A stretch of 64,000 nucleotides of DNA from Streptomyces graminofaciens (GTDB lineage Bacteria; Actinomycetota; Actinomycetes; Streptomycetales; Streptomycetaceae): positions 5,734,001-5,798,000 of the forward strand of contig NZ_AP018448.1 of the NCBI RefSeq assembly GCF_030294945.1. The letters run 5' to 3'. How positions within the stretch are numbered: position 1 is the stretch's first letter; the number at the start of each line of letters is the position of its first letter. Shown piece by piece: positions 7,951 through 47,765 of this stretch. A model generated the notes under the pieces. It saw nothing but the letters and a program-made list of their open reading frames with translations, made no database searches and had not been told where the DNA came from. Both the position numbers and the translations under genes were made by a program.

Positions 7951-8015
7951 GGCGTCCTTGTTGGCCTGGTCGGCGGTGGGTTCGGGGGCGGGCCGTGCGG
8001 GTGGTCGGCCCGGTG

Positions 8016-9368
8016 TCATCCGCGCAGGGCTGCGACGGCGTCCGCGAGGGCCCGCGGCACATCCGGTACGAGGCAGTGGACCCCGTCCCGTACGACGTGC
8101 CGACCGCCCACGACCGTATGCGACACGTCCGCTGCCGACGCGGCGAATACAGCCGTCTCGGCCCCGAGCCGCGGAAGCGGCCCTGCAGTCCTGACCGAGT
8201 CGAGCGCGATCGTCGTGAAGTCGGCGAGCGCGCCGGGCTCCAGGGTGCCCGCCTCGTCCCAGCCGAGGGCGGCGTGGCCGTCGGCCGAGGCCGCCCGCAG
8301 GAGGGCCGCCGCCGTCCAGTGACCTCGCGTCCGGGTGCGCAGCCGCTCGTCGAGCTCCATCGCGCGCGCCTCTTCGAGGAGGTCGATGACGGCGTGGCTG
8401 TCGGAGCCGAGGGAGAGCGGGGAGCCCGCCCGCTGGAGGGCCACGGCCGGTCCGATGCCGTCCGCGAGGTCGCGCTCGGTGGTGGGGCACATGCAGGTGC
8501 CGGTGCCGCTGTCACCGATCAGCGCGATGTCGGTGTCGGTGAGGTGGGTGTTGTGCACACCCGTCGTCCGTGGGCCCAGCACCCCGTGGTCGGCGAGGAG
8601 TTGGGTGGGAGTGCGTCCGTGTGCCGCGCGGCAGGCGTCGTTCTCCGCCGTCTGCTCCGAGAGGTGTACGTGCAGCGGGGCCCGCCGCTCCTCGGCCCAG
8701 CGCGCCACCGTCGCCAGCTGCCCGGCCGGCACGGCCCGTACGGAGTGCACGGCCGCGCCGATCCGCACGTGATCCCGGTCCTTGAGAACTGAACAGCGTT
8801 CCGCCCAGGCCTCCGCCGTGCCGTCGGAGAAGCGCAGCTGGTGGTGGCCCGGCGGCTGTCCGAACCCGGCGGAGAGGTAGGCGGTGTCGAGCAGGGTGAT
8901 CCGGATCCCGGCCTCCCGCGCGGCCGCGATCAGCGCCTCGCCCATGGCGTTCGGGTCGGCGTAAGGGGTGCCGCCGGGGGCGTGGTGCACATAGTGGAAC
9001 TCGCCGACGGCGGTGATCCCGGCCAGCGCCATCTCGGCGTACACGGCCCGCGCGAGGGCGTGGTAGGTGTCCGGGGTCAGCCGGTCCGCGACCTGGTACA
9101 TGACCTCGCGCCAGGTCCAGAAGGTGCCCGAGCCGACCTGGACCGTGCCGCGCAGGGCCCGGTGGAAGGCGTGGCTGTGCGCGTTGGCGAGCCCTGGAAG
9201 GGTGAGCCCGCGCAGGACCACGGCACCGGGCGGCGGGGCGGGGGTGTCGGTGCGCACGGCGGTGATACGGCCGTCGTCACCGCTGGTGGTGGTCACGGTC
9301 AGGGCCACGCCCGGCTCGACGTGTGTGTCGAGCCAGGCGTGTTCGAGCCAGTAGGTCGTCTCCGTCAC
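8016..9368 (-). CDS. hutF: Formimidoylglutamate deiminase
   Basis: The 450-residue protein is a member of the amidohydrolase superfamily, AtzF/HutF branch. It should convert N-formimino-L-glutamate to N-formyl-L-glutamate and ammonia. The metal-ligand motif [13 protein letters not shown] is near residue 68, and FHYVHH, HLSEQ and the [12 protein letters not shown] segment follow in the usual order. Its GTG start at 9368 overlaps the stop of the preceding amidohydrolase gene by four bases (GTGA), so the two are translationally coupled. The gene shows that this organism uses the five-step pathway through formylglutamate rather than HutG-type formiminoglutamase cleavage. Confidence 0.93.
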
Positions 9369-43125: not shown

Positions 43126-44445
43126 TCACTTGTGAAGGGGCGTGAACTCCACGGGCAGGGTGCGCAATCCACGCATAATGAGCCCGCCGCGCCACCGCAG
43201 ATCGGCTGAATCCACCGCGAGTTGCAGATCGGGAAGACGGGTGAGGAGAGTCGCCAGTGCGGTCTGGCCCTCCAGCCGGGCGAGGGGTGCGCCGAGGCAG
43301 TAGTGGATGCCGTGGCCGTAACCGAGGTGCTGGTTGTCCCGGCGGGAGAGGTCGAGCGTGTCGGGGTCGTCGAAGCGCGCCGGGTCACGGTCGGCGGCGG
43401 CGAGCACCACGAGAACGGGGTCGCCGGGCGCGATGTCCTGCCCGCCGATGGTGAGGGGCCGGGTCGCGAAGCGCCAGGTGGCGAGTTCGACGGGGCCGTC
43501 GTAGCGGAGGAGTTCCTCGACGCCCGTTTCGAGCAGTTCGGTTTCGCCGGCGGTCAGGGAGGCCTGGAGGCGGGCGCGTTGTTCGGGGTGGGTGAGAAGG
43601 GCGTACGTGCCGTTGCCGATCAGGTTGACGGTCGTCTCGAACCCGGCGAAGAGCAGGATGAACGCCATGGCCGCGGCCTCGTTCTCGGTGAGGTGCTCGC
43701 CGTGGTCGGAGGCGCGGATGAGGCCGGAGATGAGGTCCTCGCCGGGGGTGGCTTCGGCGGGGAGTTCTTCGCGCTTGCGGTGGATGAGTTCCAGCAGGTA
43801 GCCGCGCATCTTCTTCACCGAGCGGGCCACGCCGCCTCGGGGGCCGCCGCCGTGCCGGATCATCATCCCCGCCCAGTCCCGGAAGTCGTCCTGGTCCTCG
43901 CGGGGGACGCCGAGCAGGTCGCAGATGGCGTAGATGGGGAGAGGGAAGGCGAAGTCGTGGATGAGGTCGGCTTCGCCCTTGGCCGCGAACCGGTCGATGA
44001 GGTCGTCGGTGAGTTCCTGGACGCGGGGGGCGAACTCGGCGACCCGGCGGGGTGTGAACGCCTTGGAGACGAGGCGGCGCAGGCGGGTGTGGTCCGGCGG
44101 GTCGATGTTCAGCAGATGGGTCATCAACTCGGCCTTGCGCTCACCGGGGATGCCGGTCTTGCCCTTGGCGTGGGCCGGTTCGTCGTGGTGCGCCGGGTTC
44201 TTGGAGAGACGTTGGTCGGCGAGGGCCTGCTTGGCGTCGGCGTAACGGGTGACCAGCCAGGCCTCGACTCCGCTGGGCAGCTTGGTGCGGTGCACGGGGG
44301 CGTGGTCGCGGAGCCAGGCGTAGGCGGGGTAGGGGTTGGTGGCGAATTCCCAGGTGAAGAGTTCTGGGGCGGCGGGTCCGGTGGGGGTGGAGTCGGGGGT
44401 GCCGATGGAGGTGGCGGCGGGGCCGGGGTCGGGCTGGTTGGTCAC
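43126..44445 (-). CDS. Cytochrome P450 (CYP107-like)
   Basis: The 439-residue class I P450 has an I-helix motif LLFAGFETTVN, the E-x-x-R pair in EELLRYDGPVE, and the heme-ligand loop GYGHGIHYCLGAPLARLE, in which the usual first Phe is Tyr. Such enzymes hydroxylate small lipophilic molecules using ferredoxin electrons. No ferredoxin gene lies nearby. The GTG at 44445 overlaps the stop of the STAND-like gene (GTGA), so the P450 is translationally coupled to it and would follow its bldA-dependent translation. Confidence 0.9.
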   Translation of the reverse strand: MTNQPDPGPAATSIGTPDSTPTGPAAPELFTWEFATNPYPAYAWLRDHAPVHRTKLPSGVEAWLVTRYADAKQALADQRLSKNPAHHDEPAHAKGKTGIPGERKAELMTHLLNIDPPDHTRLRRLVSKAFTPRRVAEFAPRVQELTDDLIDRFAAKGEADLIHDFAFPLPIYAICDLLGVPREDQDDFRDWAGMMIRHGGGPRGGVARSVKKMRGYLLELIHRKREELPAEATPGEDLISGLIRASDHGEHLTENEAAAMAFILLFAGFETTVNLIGNGTYALLTHPEQRARLQASLTAGETELLETGVEELLRYDGPVELATWRFATRPLTIGGQDIAPGDPVLVVLAAADRDPARFDDPDTLDLSRRDNQHLGYGHGIHYCLGAPLARLEGQTALATLLTRLPDLQLAVDSADLRWRGGLIMRGLRTLPVEFTPLHK

Positions 44446-46667
44446 TCGTCGACGGTACCGGGGGCGGGGTCTGCGCTCGCGGTCCCCTCGGTGAGAAAGA
44501 CGGTCATGCGGGAGCGGTGCAGATCGAGGTGGCCCAGCTCATCGGCTCTGCTGAGCCATTGCTCGGCCGCTCGGCCTCTGCCCTTCTGTTTCAGGTGGAT
44601 CCCGAGCCAGTGAGCGGCTTGGCCGTCACCTCTCTTGGTGGCCCTCCGGAGCATGCTTTCGCCCTCGTCCACGGAGCCGGTGTTGATGAGGAGACGTCCG
44701 AGGTTCCGCAGTGCGTCCGGCTGGCCTGCCGCCATGGCCGCGCGGAGCATCTGCTCGGCCTCTTCGGCATTGTTGTCCTCGATGTACAGAAGAGCCGCGA
44801 GGTCGTTCATGGCCAAGGGATCCCCCTGGGCGACCCCGTAACGGAACCAGCTCTCCGCGGCCTGCTTGTCCCCCATGTTGTAGAGCTCCCTGCCCAGGCG
44901 AACGGCTGCCCTGTCGTAGCCGGCCTCGATCGCCGTCATGTACCACCGGAGTGCTTCGACGCTGCTGACGGCGCTCTGCATATTGCCCAGTTCGTACGCG
45001 GCGTGCCCGTCCCCTTTCTCGGCCGCCGCCCGCAGCCATCGCTCGCTGCGGGCGCGGTGCAGCAAACCGGCCTCGCGCGCCGCGCGGGCGCTTCCGCACT
45101 CCGCCGCCGCCTCCAGATGCCGGAGCGCGCCCGTCTCGTCTCCGATGCTCACCAGGTGCGCGGCCCACTCCTCGGCCGCCGCCTCATGTCCTGCTTCGGC
45201 CGCTCGGCGTATCAGCTCCCGGTGTGTCTCGCCACCGACGCGGCCCGCGAACGCGAACATCAGGTCCGCGTCCCCCGCCTCGAACCGGGGCTGGAGTGCT
45301 GCTCGGGCCGCGTCGAGCACGGCTTCGCGGTCGATCGGGGCTCCCGCCTCCGCCTCGTCCAGCAGGGTCCACCACACCCCGTCGGGCACGGGCTCCAGAT
45401 CCTCCGCCCGCAGCGCCTCCGCGACCAGCGCGCCGTACGCCCGGCAGGTGCCGTCCGTGCCTTGCACAAGCATTCCGGAGGCGCCGAACATGGGTGTCGT
45501 GGCCCACTCGAAAGCGTCCTCGAACGACTCGTGGCCCTCTGTCCCGTACTGCTCCTGGACTCTCCTCAGCAGTTCGACCGGCACGGCTGCCTGCACCCCG
45601 CAGCGCGGCAGCTCCACCGCCGCCCGGACCAGCAGTTGCCCGAGCGGGTGCGCCGACCGTGTCCCCTCGCGTCGCCACTCGTCGAACAGCAGGTGCCCGA
45701 TCGCGAAGTACGACGCCGGGCCTTCCCTGCCGCTCCACATGTACGCCGGGTACGCGCGCGGGTCGTCGAGCTCCGCCAGTCGCCGGAGTTCGGCCTCGCT
45801 CCACTCGCGTGGCAGCAGCACTGTGCGCGCCCTGGCCACGACCCGGTCGGCGGGGGCTGTCCGCGCCCTGCGCCGGTAGTACTCGTCGGGGCGCATGGTG
45901 GCGAGCACGACCGCCCCGAGGCCACCGAGCTTCCCCAACAGCTTCAGGTTCAGGCCGCCTTCGCCGAGGTGGTCGGTCAACTCGTCCAACCACACGACGT
46001 ATGTTCCCGGCTCGCCCTTCAGCTCGGTCGGCAGTTCCCTCAGGTCCTCGCCCCGATCGGGCGCGTACAGTCGATGCCCCTTCAGCGACCGCACGCCCTG
46101 CCACGCCGTGTACGACTTCCCCGCGTACCGCTCCCCCAGGATCAGCACCAGGCCGCCGTTCTTCAGCTCGGCCCACAGCGCCTCGTCGCAGTCGCGTGGG
46201 ACGTACGGCGGTACGTCGGCCAGCCCGGGTATCGGCCGGGTGGCGTGCACGCCGAACTCCCAGGGCTCGACGTCGCCGACCGGCCGGCCCTCGGCCGGGG
46301 GCGGGCCGTCGCCCTGGGCCTCCTGCTTGACCGTCACGGGGCCGTTGAAGGTGGCGCCGCCGAAGTCGAAGCGGTCGCCGGTGTGGCGGTCGCCGGTGGA
46401 GACGGAGTCGATGGTGCCGGCCTGGATGACAGGGCCTTGGAAGGTGCCGCCCGTAATGGTGTTGGCGACCTCGGCTCGAGCGCGGTGCAGCCGCCGTACC
46501 TTGGCCACGAGATCCTGGTAATGCTCAGGCGACTGCGTCTGGAGGGCGCGCACGTGGGCACGCAAGGTCTCTGGGTCGCGCATGTATCCGGAGGGGATGA
46601 GGGAACGCCGTTCCCCGGCCGGCAGCGCCAATAACACTCGTACCAGCCACTCCCACTCCTGCTCCAC
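44442..46667 (-). CDS. STAND-like NTPase with amyloid-like motif and Sel1/TPR repeats; TTA codon 12
   Basis: From GTG 46667 (GGGGG upstream; a TTG at 46688 is an alternative) the product has 741 residues. Residues 1-68 form a small helical domain. Residues 69-86 (NTITGGTFQGPVIQAGTI) resemble RHIM/PP-like bacterial amyloid signalling motifs, and a second, weaker copy (FDFGGATFNGPV) lies at 101-112. An NTPase domain follows: Walker A GERYAGKS at 178-185, Walker B VVWLDE at 224-229, then VVLATMRPDEYY. The C-terminal half is a series of Sel1/TPR-like repeats (AAEKGDGHAAYELG, YGVAQGDPLAMNDLA). The architecture fits a ligand-triggered STAND ATPase, perhaps in immunity or signalling. Codon 12 is TTA, so translation should need bldA. 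Confidence 0.82.
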   Translation of the reverse strand: MEQEWEWLVRVLLALPAGERRSLIPSGYMRDPETLRAHVRALQTQSPEHYQDLVAKVRRLHRARAEVANTITGGTFQGPVIQAGTIDSVSTGDRHTGDRFDFGGATFNGPVTVKQEAQGDGPPPAEGRPVGDVEPWEFGVHATRPIPGLADVPPYVPRDCDEALWAELKNGGLVLILGERYAGKSYTAWQGVRSLKGHRLYAPDRGEDLRELPTELKGEPGTYVVWLDELTDHLGEGGLNLKLLGKLGGLGAVVLATMRPDEYYRRRARTAPADRVVARARTVLLPREWSEAELRRLAELDDPRAYPAYMWSGREGPASYFAIGHLLFDEWRREGTRSAHPLGQLLVRAAVELPRCGVQAAVPVELLRRVQEQYGTEGHESFEDAFEWATTPMFGASGMLVQGTDGTCRAYGALVAEALRAEDLEPVPDGVWWTLLDEAEAGAPIDREAVLDAARAALQPRFEAGDADLMFAFAGRVGGETHRELIRRAAEAGHEAAAEEWAAHLVSIGDETGALRHLEAAAECGSARAAREAGLLHRARSERWLRAAAEKGDGHAAYELGNMQSAVSSVEALRWYMTAIEAGYDRAAVRLGRELYNMGDKQAAESWFRYGVAQGDPLAMNDLAALLYIEDNNAEEAEQMLRAAMAAGQPDALRNLGRLLINTGSVDEGESMLRRATKRGDGQAAHWLGIHLKQKGRGRAAEQWLSRADELGHLDLHRSRMTVFLTEGTASADPAPGTVDE

Positions 46668-46709
46668 AGAAGCCCCCGCCCCTCGCAACCATCCGTAAGG
46701 ACAACGGTA

Positions 46710-47708
46710 CTAAGAGTCAAGCCCCTCAGCGGCCCGCACCGCGTCCCGGTACGCCCGTGCCGCGGCCCGTAGCGCCGCTTCGGGGTCTACCCCGGCCGCC
46801 TCCGCCCGTACCGCCATCACCAGCAGCTCGTAGCCGGGGCCCTCGCCGGTCGGCAGCGGTACGTCCAGGCCCGCCGTGCGCACCCGTGAGCCCAGCTTCG
46901 ACGCCAGCGCGAGGCCCGGCTGGCCGAGAGGTATGCCGTCCGTCACCGACTCACGGCGCTTCTCCATCGCCTTGGTGCGCAGCCAGTGCGCCTTGACCTC
47001 CTCCGGGGTCGTGGCCGTCTCGTCGCCGAAGACATGCGGGTGGCGGTGGATGAGCTTGGCGACGATGCCGGCGGCGACGTCGTCGATGGAGAAGGAGGCG
47101 TCCGGATCCTCCTCGGCGATACGGGCGTGGAAGACGACCTGGAGCAGGACGTCGCCCAGTTCCTCGCGGAGTTCGTCCCTGTCGCCCTCCTCGATCGCCT
47201 CCACCAGCTCGTACGCCTCCTCGATGCCGTACTTGGCCAGGCCCTTGTGGGTCTGCTGGGAGGACCAGGGGCACTCGGCGCGGATGCGGTCCATGACCTG
47301 GACGAGGTCGAGGAGGCGGGCGCCGGGGAGGTCGTAGGAGGCGGGGAGCAGCTCCAGTGACGGCATCTGCACGCGGCCGGAGCCCGCCAGGCGCGCCAGG
47401 CCGTCGGTGAGGGCGGGCTCGCCCTCGGCGGTCGCGACGACCACCACCGTGCGGTCGCCGGCGCACTCGGCCACCAGTTCCTCGGCCGTCGGGGACGCCT
47501 GCTGGACCGTTATGCCCGCCTCGCGGAGGTACGGCAGCTGTGGGTGTGTGTCGTCCGCGCAGACGACCCGGTCCGCGTCGTGGAGGGCCTGCCAGGCGGG
47601 CCAGGACAGCAGGCCGGGGGCGACTCGGTGGCTGGTGGTCAGCAGGACGACGAGGCCGGGGGCGGGGGCCGCGGTGTCGGAGGGGCCGTCGGGGCGGTTT
47701 GCGTTCAC
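46710..47708 (-). CDS. mazG: MazG-family nucleoside triphosphate pyrophosphohydrolase
   Basis: The 332-residue protein has an N-terminal region of about 120 residues resembling a degraded tetrapyrrole-methylase-like fold, as in actinobacterial MazG. This is followed by a MazG domain with CPWSSQQTHKGLAKYGIEEAYE, then AIEEGDRDELREELGDVLLQVVFHARIAEE in short runs that carry the ExxE...ExxD magnesium ligands. It cleanses the pool of aberrant dNTPs. GTG 47708 is the preferred start, though no clear ribosome site was found. It lies 57 bases after the SurA-like lipoprotein gene and 42 bases before the STAND gene, on the same strand. Confidence 0.9.
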   Translation of the reverse strand: MNANRPDGPSDTAAPAPGLVVLLTTSHRVAPGLLSWPAWQALHDADRVVCADDTHPQLPYLREAGITVQQASPTAEELVAECAGDRTVVVVATAEGEPALTDGLARLAGSGRVQMPSLELLPASYDLPGARLLDLVQVMDRIRAECPWSSQQTHKGLAKYGIEEAYELVEAIEEGDRDELREELGDVLLQVVFHARIAEEDPDASFSIDDVAAGIVAKLIHRHPHVFGDETATTPEEVKAHWLRTKAMEKRRESVTDGIPLGQPGLALASKLGSRVRTAGLDVPLPTGEGPGYELLVMAVRAEAAGVDPEAALRAAARAYRDAVRAAEGLDS

Positions 47709-47765
47709 ACCACGAACGTAACCCACGTCACCGACGGCCCCCGAAGTTGTCCACAGGCTCCGGCG

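Follow-up and report, generated by a model that had tools for sequence, protein, structure and literature searches.

A STAND-like gene with two amyloid-signalling-like motifs in an accessory position beside a core cytochrome P450 of Streptomyces

Between mazG and a cytochrome P450 gene of Streptomyces graminofaciens lies a single gene whose product resembles a nucleotide-binding sensor with short motifs of the kind used in amyloid signalling. Its immediate neighbours are mazG and the P450, with no adjacent effector carrying a matching motif, and the question raised by this locus is what such a sensor would act upon. Here we follow up an earlier note, made from the sequence alone, on a stretch of 64,000 nucleotides (the window), using 80 loci that are the best mazG matches, and hence close relatives, together with a broader sample of 61 genomes from the genus.

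The gene occupies 44442..46667 on the minus strand, the extent originally proposed, and runs from a GTG at 46667 to a stop at 44442, encoding 741 amino acids; this is also the length of the database copy (P0001), and starting instead at a TTG at 46688 would lengthen the protein by 7 residues. Among 8000 candidates scored there are 164 homologues at E <= 1e-3, of which the best 120 make up our homologue list. From the N-terminus the protein consists of a short N-terminal domain, motif 1, motif 2, a P-loop NTPase and Sel1/TPR repeats. The N-terminal domain (46470..46667, minus strand; residues 1-66), helical by eye only, is of the type 'EQEWEWLVRxLLALP...PGY', which we recognize by eye in nine family members (P0018, P0029, P0073, P0078-P0081, P0083 and P0085); against the 'ELEELRDALVRAM' type, the best row of the focal type (P0073) reaches 12.9 bits, compared with 10.6 for a shuffle. 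In several family members the N-terminal domain is homologous to four of the eight stand-alone proteins tested, among them L104 from the same genome (E 1.8e-19) and L140 (E 6.4e-20). The Sel1/TPR C-terminus (44508..45227, minus strand; about residues 481-720) is borne out by two Pfam TPR models, with scores barely above their cut-offs, and by Sel1/TPR structures matched with a profile of the family. The gene contains exactly one TTA codon, codon 12 (46632..46634, minus strand).

The NTPase part (45678..46217, minus strand; about residues 151-330) is a conserved block in a 96-row alignment of the family and contains both motifs first read from the sequence, Walker A GERYAGKS (46113..46136, minus strand; residues 178-185), with G178 and G183 invariant and K184 nearly so, and Walker B VVWLDE (45981..45998, minus strand; residues 224-229), with L227 and D228 invariant. 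The protein thereby joins a P-loop NTPase, complete with both Walker motifs, to a repeat domain, as is looked for in a STAND protein, and the P-loop and Walker B region of the family aligns by profile (hhalign) at 89.9% with nSTAND3 proteins and at 91.4% with NACHT proteins that likewise carry motif 1. The Pfam nSTAND3 model matches 12 of 60 family members (best E 6.1e-5), with all scores seen below its curated cut-off of 27.2 bits; the focal protein differs in that no STAND family matches it up to E 1. The STAND assignment of the earlier note thus stands as a sub-threshold likeness to nSTAND3 and NACHT proteins and fails as membership of a curated family, and by its sequence the NTPase resembles STAND NTPases below curated cut-offs.

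Motif 1 (46392..46469, minus strand; residues 67-92, VANTITGGTFQGPVIQAGTIDSVSTG) includes the segment that first drew attention (residues 69-86, NTITGGTFQGPVIQAGTI), whose IQAG core may be compared with the [IV]-Q-x-G of RHIM. A profile built without the focal row gives the focal protein 43.7 bits, where the best of 2000 shuffles reaches 4.3, and a profile from 11 proteins outside the family gives it 30.7 bits (28.3 without P0124) vs 4.5 for the best of 5000 shuffles; the proteins of this profile and of its motif-2 counterpart were gathered with the family profiles, or by pattern in the case of P0124, so both profiles are non-family but not blind. Motif 1 reaches at least 10 bits in 7 of 37 slot alleles with the family profile and in 4 of 37 with the independent one, and is therefore not a constant part of the family. 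In the Streptomycetales it recurs, carried N-terminally by NB-ARC- or NACHT-type proteins and C-terminally by small or enzymatic ones, and at one locus (L133) it scores well on both a sensor and its effector-type neighbour. Another candidate pair, L142, was discarded, as its sensor side gave a non-significant 4.6 bits and no match to the non-family profile.

This recurrence on the N-termini of sensors and the C-termini of effector-type proteins supports the amyloid-signalling-like character claimed for motif 1, whereas its placement among known families does not carry over. The profile without the focal row matches neither of two BASS3-type peptides (Frankia and Methanothrix), so membership of BASS3 was rejected and the label 'RHIM/PP-like BASS' is, as far as sequence comparison goes, a resemblance and not a membership. 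The Nectria sigma peptide scores 5.5 bits, near the 4.3 of the best shuffle, and a comparison of the motif-1 profile with PDB chains gave nothing at E <= 10. An ARD 3-mer is ascribed to BASS2 (PMC9815663), and because some copies of motif 1 contain ARD (e.g. VVQARDV in L133), motif 1 may correspond to BASS2.

Motif 2 (46323..46379, minus strand; residues about 97-115, GDRFDFGGATFNGPVTVKQ) is the second copy already noted, present in a divergent and weaker form. The family profile minus the focal row gives 9.3 bits at an E of 0.085, with the best shuffle at 7.0, and the profile from 13 non-family proteins 21.1 bits vs 7.8 for the best of 5000 shuffles. It is found in 30 of 37 slot alleles and is degenerate in the focal protein; of 13 genomes searched for it, 7 gave no match. 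The motif is common to PNP_UDP_1 proteins, standing at the C-terminus of all four that were scanned (L167 from the same genome, L168, L170 and L171), and it stands at the N-terminus of NB-ARC-TPR proteins, with sensor and effector genes as neighbours at L167, L168, L171 and L172. Genes in the fetched loci were called with a simple script that scores third-position GC, with approximate starts and some genes missed, the PNP-type frame of L169 among them. Against solved structures motif 2 returned one weak zinc-finger match (E 0.24), which we dismiss as chance. The distribution of motif 2 recalls the fungal PUASM, described as a short motif common to PNP_UDP enzymes and NLR N-termini (PMC9815663). 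The fungal pattern FxGxGxQxxGxGxF differs by eye from motif 2, the fungal sensors are NACHT proteins, and the focal protein is not encoded next to the PNP gene.

Where, then, might the partners of the focal protein be? Of the 52 genes called in the window, the focal gene alone reaches 12 bits with either non-family motif profile, in keeping with the initial observation that no effector with the same motif is present there. The proposed search of the whole genome for a second protein with the motif did find such proteins, for motif 1 at L101, L100 and L104 and for motif 2 at L167. At L101 an alpha/beta-hydrolase (7957-9093; Abhydrolase_6 barely above cut-off) ends in motif 1 and adjoins a TPR protein whose N-terminus bears a weaker copy, at 15.9 bits with the held-out profile (best shuffle 4.5) and, near shuffles, 5.6 bits (E 1.3) with the family profile; the NB-ARC match on this sensor side is below cut-off. 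Small proteins at L100 and L104 carry motif 1 at the C-terminus, and at L167 motif 2 closes a PNP_UDP_1 protein and opens an NB-ARC-TPR protein encoded nearby. Because the hydrolase and the PNP_UDP_1 protein share the motifs of the focal protein, candidate effectors exist in its own genome outside the window; L101 and L167 have nearby NB-ARC-type partners of their own and therefore need not answer to the focal protein.

Neighbouring sensor and effector genes with a common motif are, in PMC7889193, the setting in which bacterial amyloid signalling motifs are called, and this arrangement is found for the motif class and not for the focal gene. The BASS NLR/effector pairs (BELL-BASS / BASS-NLR) likewise have a short N-terminal motif on a nucleotide-binding TPR protein, with the same motif ending separate effector-like proteins, in filamentous actinobacteria (PMC7889193, PMC8086366). 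The focal gene differs in lacking an adjacent matching effector, its neighbour being a P450, and the focal protein in carrying two different motifs in tandem. PADLOC models gave no match up to E 1 to either the STAND-like protein or the P450.

The P450 gene (43126..44445, minus strand; Pfam p450 E 1e-30) is followed in the window by rpf-type genes (Transglycosylas and LysM matches) and by an ORF, 92-98% identical in relatives, that we take to be eno, which is the arrangement by which a CYP107U locus is recognized. In the published gene order SCO3099 is CYP107U (PMC6838473) and SCO3098 is rpfC (PMC6414726), and because this order matches that at the focal locus we regard the P450 as CYP107U-type by synteny. 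On the upstream side, mazG (46710..47726, minus strand; Pfam MazG E 6.6e-29) served as the anchor for comparing the 80 loci. The coupling by GTGA described at the outset is present as a 4-base overlap of the STAND-like stop and the P450 start (44442..44445, minus strand). The stop likewise overlaps an in-frame P450 start in 19 of 23 related loci and in 8 of 8 genus-sample loci (three duplicates); counting distinct loci whose contig includes the P450, it does so in 25 of 29 (GTGA, once ATGA). Conservon-type operons of Streptomyces, which comprise a Ras-like GTPase, roadblock and sensor-kinase-like proteins, similarly encode a signalling nucleotide-binding protein ahead of a P450; at the focal locus the STAND-like gene is by contrast alone between mazG and the P450.

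The two genes differ sharply in their distribution. Wherever the contig extends as far as the P450, in 73 loci, its sequence is there, as it is in all 20 chosen genus genomes, whereas a STAND frame that reaches 540 aa, which does not by itself prove an intact gene, is found in 28 of 80 loci and in 23 of the 73 that reach the P450. The P450 is core and the STAND-like gene accessory, and the P450 is not a partner dependent on the STAND-like gene: the coupling is positional, not obligatory. Median pairwise identity is 48% for the STAND-like protein and 92% for the P450, and fast divergence of this kind beside a conserved P450 is what a conflict gene would be expected to show. TTA codons occur in 18 of 28 STAND alleles, at 22 TTA to 12 CTA vs 54 to 234 in other genes, which supports the suggestion of developmental control. 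Among individual P450 matches, that of G060, one of the 20 genus genomes, contains two TAG codons, that of L056 is in two pieces, and those of L051 and L052 are cut by the contig end. The P450 is inverted in 10 loci, 9 of them without a frame of at least 540 aa; because the inverted loci form a single clade and many other loci also lack the gene, we draw no conclusion on a tie between inversion and STAND loss.

The reading that we favour, with confidence that is about evenly balanced, is that the protein is an NLR-like (STAND-type) sensor that reaches its effectors in trans and whose translation is developmentally controlled. Its Sel1/TPR repeats would sense a ligand, ATP-dependent assembly through the NTPase would cluster the N-terminal motifs, and the clustered motifs could template matching motifs on separate effectors, motif 1 on the alpha/beta-hydrolase and the two small proteins and motif 2 on the PNP_UDP_1 (nucleoside phosphorylase-like) enzyme, probably ending in metabolic shutdown or in death of the hyphal compartment. 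The TTA codon would confine translation to late growth, and the stop/start overlap would tie P450 translation partly to the STAND-like gene. The roles in signalling, amyloid formation and defence are ones that we infer for the protein.

The overlap could instead be placed at the centre of the explanation, with the STAND protein as a developmental switch whose chief role would be to time P450 expression by means of a transcript common to both genes, of the TTA codon and of the overlap, an account that we think unlikely while granting it real weight. The enrichment of TTA agrees with it, as do the presence of the overlap in 25 of 29 distinct loci, alleles 34-41% identical to the focal one among them, and the nine genus-sample genomes with a match at E <= 2e-59 (its own included), all of which have the gene beside the P450. 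Against such timing, the P450 remains in the 50 of 73 loci where no STAND frame reaches 540 aa and is inverted in 10. Six or seven loci that lack the STAND-like gene have the P450 GTG overlapping the stop of mazG instead, so that the overlap may do no more than reflect the P450 start. This account also leaves the two motifs common to other proteins unexplained.

The recurrence of the motifs in unrelated proteins tells also against a self-contained switch, in which they would join the protein's own subunits only and the N-terminal domain would be its own effector or adaptor. N-termini do fall into different types across a family that retains its NTPase, and one of these types is the same domain as that of some stand-alone motif proteins, but the focal domain is short and apparently unlike the stand-alone type (no bell-profile match), and we consider this version improbable. 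Still more improbable, in our estimate, is that the accessory gene has no settled role, and that drift or recombination retains or removes it in a permissive stretch next to the core P450. A tree of 72 rows does require at least 16 gains or losses, 12 of them forced by well-supported branches, and the copies at L012 (broken), L061 (a remnant) and L066 (seemingly split into two frames), like the other genes that occupy the mazG-P450 gap at some loci, would suit such a history; against it, the frames in the 28 of 80 loci are 566-889 aa long with the same orientation and mostly the same spacing, the Walker motifs are conserved in the family, and TTA but not CTA is enriched.

The reading of a sensor acting in trans can be taken further, to a hub without an effector of its own, in which two serial templating motifs would fire two effector classes, motif 1 the hydrolase and small proteins and motif 2 PNP-type enzymes, while late-development translation would be passed through the overlap to the sporulation-linked P450; we offer this as a speculation, doubtful at present, and if true the protein would resemble a helper NLR, in bacterial form and tied into development. 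If the sensor reading is right, bacterial amyloid-type signalling would extend beyond adjacent pairs of sensor and effector genes, one sensor could address several effectors through different motifs, as in fungal and plant immune receptor networks, and an immune-type switch would be linked to a Streptomyces P450 locus that is both core and developmental.

The focal gene encodes a 741-aa STAND-like NTPase and belongs to an 11.6 Mb genome. It lies on the minus strand, with its GTG at 46667 and its stop at 44442, between mazG (46710-47726, minus strand) and a P450 gene (43126-44445, minus strand) that is followed by two rpf-type genes and by what we take, from reading of the ORF rather than a family search, to be eno. 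Across 80 mazG-anchored loci, all from Streptomyces, P450 sequence is present in all 73 of the 73 that reach it (in two pieces in L056; L-numbers denote the loci and stretches compared), and a STAND frame of at least 540 aa lies in the mazG-P450 gap of 28, 23 of them among those 73, with a broken copy in L012 and a remnant in L061. On a tree built from eno, mazG and P450 (72 rows, 23 with STAND including the focal one), presence and absence of STAND takes at least 16 changes, 12 of them forced, against a shuffled mean of about 19.5, and median pairwise identity over the 23 rows with all genes (253 pairs) is 95.6 for eno, 88.0 for mazG, 92.2 for P450 and 47.6 for STAND. Of the 61 genomes in a genus sample, 13 match STAND at E <= 1e-30; the nine strongest matches, our own included, adjoin the P450, whereas for five weaker ones the surrounding stretch examined contains neither a P450 nor a mazG match. 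In one of these five (L114) a trypsin-like protease is fused to the switch beside a Trypco2 protein, so the switch also occurs with other likely effectors. Other genes are present in the gap of L010, L027, L044, L051, L053, L065 and L082, among them one for a protein of 163-169 aa and unknown family (L010, L027, L044) and genes that look by eye to be of helix-turn-helix type (L051, L065).

The earlier note had claimed coupling to the P450, and the layout is real: among the 23 slot alleles whose contig includes the P450, 19 have an in-frame P450 start overlapping the stop of STAND (no such overlap in L039, L051, L055 and L066), as do 8/8 genus-sample loci (three duplicates; one ATGA) and the focal locus, which makes 25 of 29 distinct loci. 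The overlap may belong to the P450 start itself, since in six or seven loci without STAND the GTG of the P450 overlaps the stop of mazG. Ten loci (L016, L019, L027, L037, L038, L039, L061, L075, L078 and L079), which form one clade on the tree, have the P450 in the opposite orientation to mazG. Because S. coelicolor SCO3099 is CYP107U and SCO3098 is rpfC, as stated in the parts consulted of PMC6838473 and PMC6414726 respectively, the P450 of the window is taken, by synteny, as the CYP107U gene. A literature search, with most subscription papers outside it, returned nothing with SCO3100 for SCO3098-SCO3100 and no title on a P450 with a STAND/TPR protein in Streptomyces. By its title, a 2013 paper by Tian et al. 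is said to have CYP107U1, sporulation and antibiotic production as its subject.

Translation of TTA codons requires the bldA tRNA. Such codons occur, at varying positions, in 18 of 28 slot STAND alleles versus 46 of the 583 other genes, 300 aa or longer, that were called in these loci (Fisher p 1.3e-12), and the TTA:CTA ratio is 22:12 versus 54:234 (p 6e-8), so that the excess is not just looser codon use; both p-values are too small, since the alleles are related. The aligned parts of the neighbours carry none (P450 0/73, mazG 0/80), nor do the eight motif-carrying genes checked in our own genome.

Of the domain claims for the focal protein, the Sel1/TPR repeats are borne out: TPR-type repeats are its only Pfam matches worth keeping, and the family profile matches Sel1/TPR structures. 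The NTPase is likely, though not proven, to be STAND-like; Walker A and B are kept throughout a 96-row family alignment, and profile-profile comparison gives 89.9% over 81 columns with four nSTAND3 proteins and 91.4% with two NACHT proteins, where the aligned part includes motif 1, which both carry, and the comparison therefore tests more than the NTPase alone. Against this, nSTAND3 is matched in 12 of 60 family members (best E 6.1e-5) with the inspected scores below cut-off. Slot-allele N-termini have a median pairwise identity of 29% (231 of 406 pairs comparable) versus 56% for the NTPase (406 pairs). One N-terminal type, modelled from eight family members and run against eight stand-alone proteins, matches four, those of L104 (E 1.8e-19) and L140 (E 6.4e-20) together with the tandem proteins found in L134 and L135, with no match to the small proteins of L100, L133, L141 and L142. 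In part of the family, then, the switch is fused to a domain that stands alone with the motif in L104 and L140; the focal N-terminal domain is of a different, shorter type.

Two amyloid-signalling-like motifs precede the NTPase. Motif 1 has the consensus N-T-V-S-G-G-T-x-x-G-P-V-I-Q-A-G-x-I (20 segments), and its profile, built without the focal row, scores the focal protein at 43.7 bits, against 4.3 for the best of 2000 shuffles. Motif 2 reads DHVDFRDxTFHxxVVGVQHxHYG in homologues and is divergent in the focal protein (GDRFDFGGATFNGPVTVKQ). With profiles made solely from proteins outside the family (11 for motif 1, 13 for motif 2), focal residues 67-86 score 30.7 bits and residues 97-115 score 21.1 bits, against 4.5 and 7.8 for the best of 5000 shuffles. 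Among the 1910 called proteins of all stretches compared, 39 matches to motif 1 and 69 to motif 2 reach 12 bits, a check for stray hits rather than a blind rate, since many stretches were picked for carrying a motif; all but L154 are carriers known from earlier profile searches, overlapping copies or slot STAND alleles. That exception (L154:1465-1935) is a 156-aa protein with a motif-2-like stretch at 15.5 bits. By the same profiles, motif 2 is present in 93 of the 120 family members listed, motif 1 in 27 and both in 18, and both occur in 3 of 37 slot alleles (three pairs being the same strain). A repeated stretch, RSxAAGGDIGxAxTGD, lies ahead of motif 2 in many slot alleles (e.g. L015, L017, L023, L031) and is a possible third motif of this kind.

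A search of our own genome for a second protein with the same motif succeeded: beyond the focal gene, motif 1 was matched four times at E <= 0.01 and, more weakly, at six other places. The four stronger matches lie in a NACHT protein (L103), an iHD-CE/HSP90-type conflict protein with the motif at its start (L102:7246-11157; PF24401, E 1.7e-107), an alpha/beta-hydrolase that carries it at residue 343 of 378 (L101) and a small protein that has it C-terminally (L100); another such small protein, in L104, is among the weaker six (E 0.02). A 309-aa protein of this genome with no domain assigned (L105:5623-6552) has a motif-1-like stretch near its N-terminus at 25.7 bits by the non-family profile. 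Overlapping the gene of the hydrolase, in head-to-head orientation, is that of an 803-aa TPR protein (L101:7957-11332, own genome 7035000-7051000), whose NB-ARC match is below cut-off and whose motif-1 copy at residue 8, noticed by pattern, scores 5.6 bits with the family profile and 15.9 bits with a non-family profile built without it (best shuffle 4.5); the two are a possible sensor/effector pair. Motif 1 occurs at E <= 0.01 in 9 of 21 genomes (20 relatives and our own), and ten further regions were inspected. In one, L133, the genes for an NB-ARC-TPR protein (motif at residue 15, 22.6 bits) and for a small protein that ends in the motif (28.4 bits) stand head to head, by sequence a clear candidate pair. 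In L142 a small protein ends in the motif (17.2 bits) and the adjoining NB-ARC-TPR copy scores 4.6 bits, which is not significant; in L134 a gene with two copies of a small-protein domain lies close to a NACHT carrier.

Motif 2 was matched at E <= 0.1 in 6 of 13 chosen genomes and without match in the other 7. Outside the family it lies at the C-terminus of 282-308 aa proteins, PNP_UDP_1 by Pfam in 4/4 scanned (L167, L168, L170, L171), and N-terminally in proteins about 730-760 aa long, NB-ARC-TPR where scanned (L167, L168, L173, L174), roughly 0.5 to 8 kb apart. This arrangement is found in our own genome (L167:5114-10517), whose PNP_UDP_1 protein is one of 8 such matches there at E <= 1e-10, and in L168, L169, L170 and L171; no PNP carrier was seen in L173 or L174. 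In L172 a 137-aa protein ending in motif 2 adjoins an NB-ARC-TPR protein that starts with it. Nearby in L168, L170 and L171 is a called protein that carries VTVGQLLL close to its N-terminus, while the one near the L169 genes is membrane-like and also contains VTVGQLLL; it is perhaps a third component of these loci.

Our background on amyloid signalling comes from parts of PMC7889193, PMC8086366, PMC9815663 and PMC12881547, and term searches found neither RHIM nor P450 in the main text of two eLife conflict-system papers (PMC8195603, PMC7159879). Judged by adjacency, the focal gene is not a BASS system: no motif-bearing effector lies beside it. Re-scoring weakened L142 as a motif-1 pair and qualified L101; since the argument rests on L133, motif 2 and the non-family profiles, our estimate stays as it was. 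We regard the focal protein as an NLR-like switch with two amyloid-signalling-like motifs, the chances that it works like the sensor of an amyloid-type signalosome being about even; its gene holds a conserved position ahead of a core P450, is fast evolving and is often absent.
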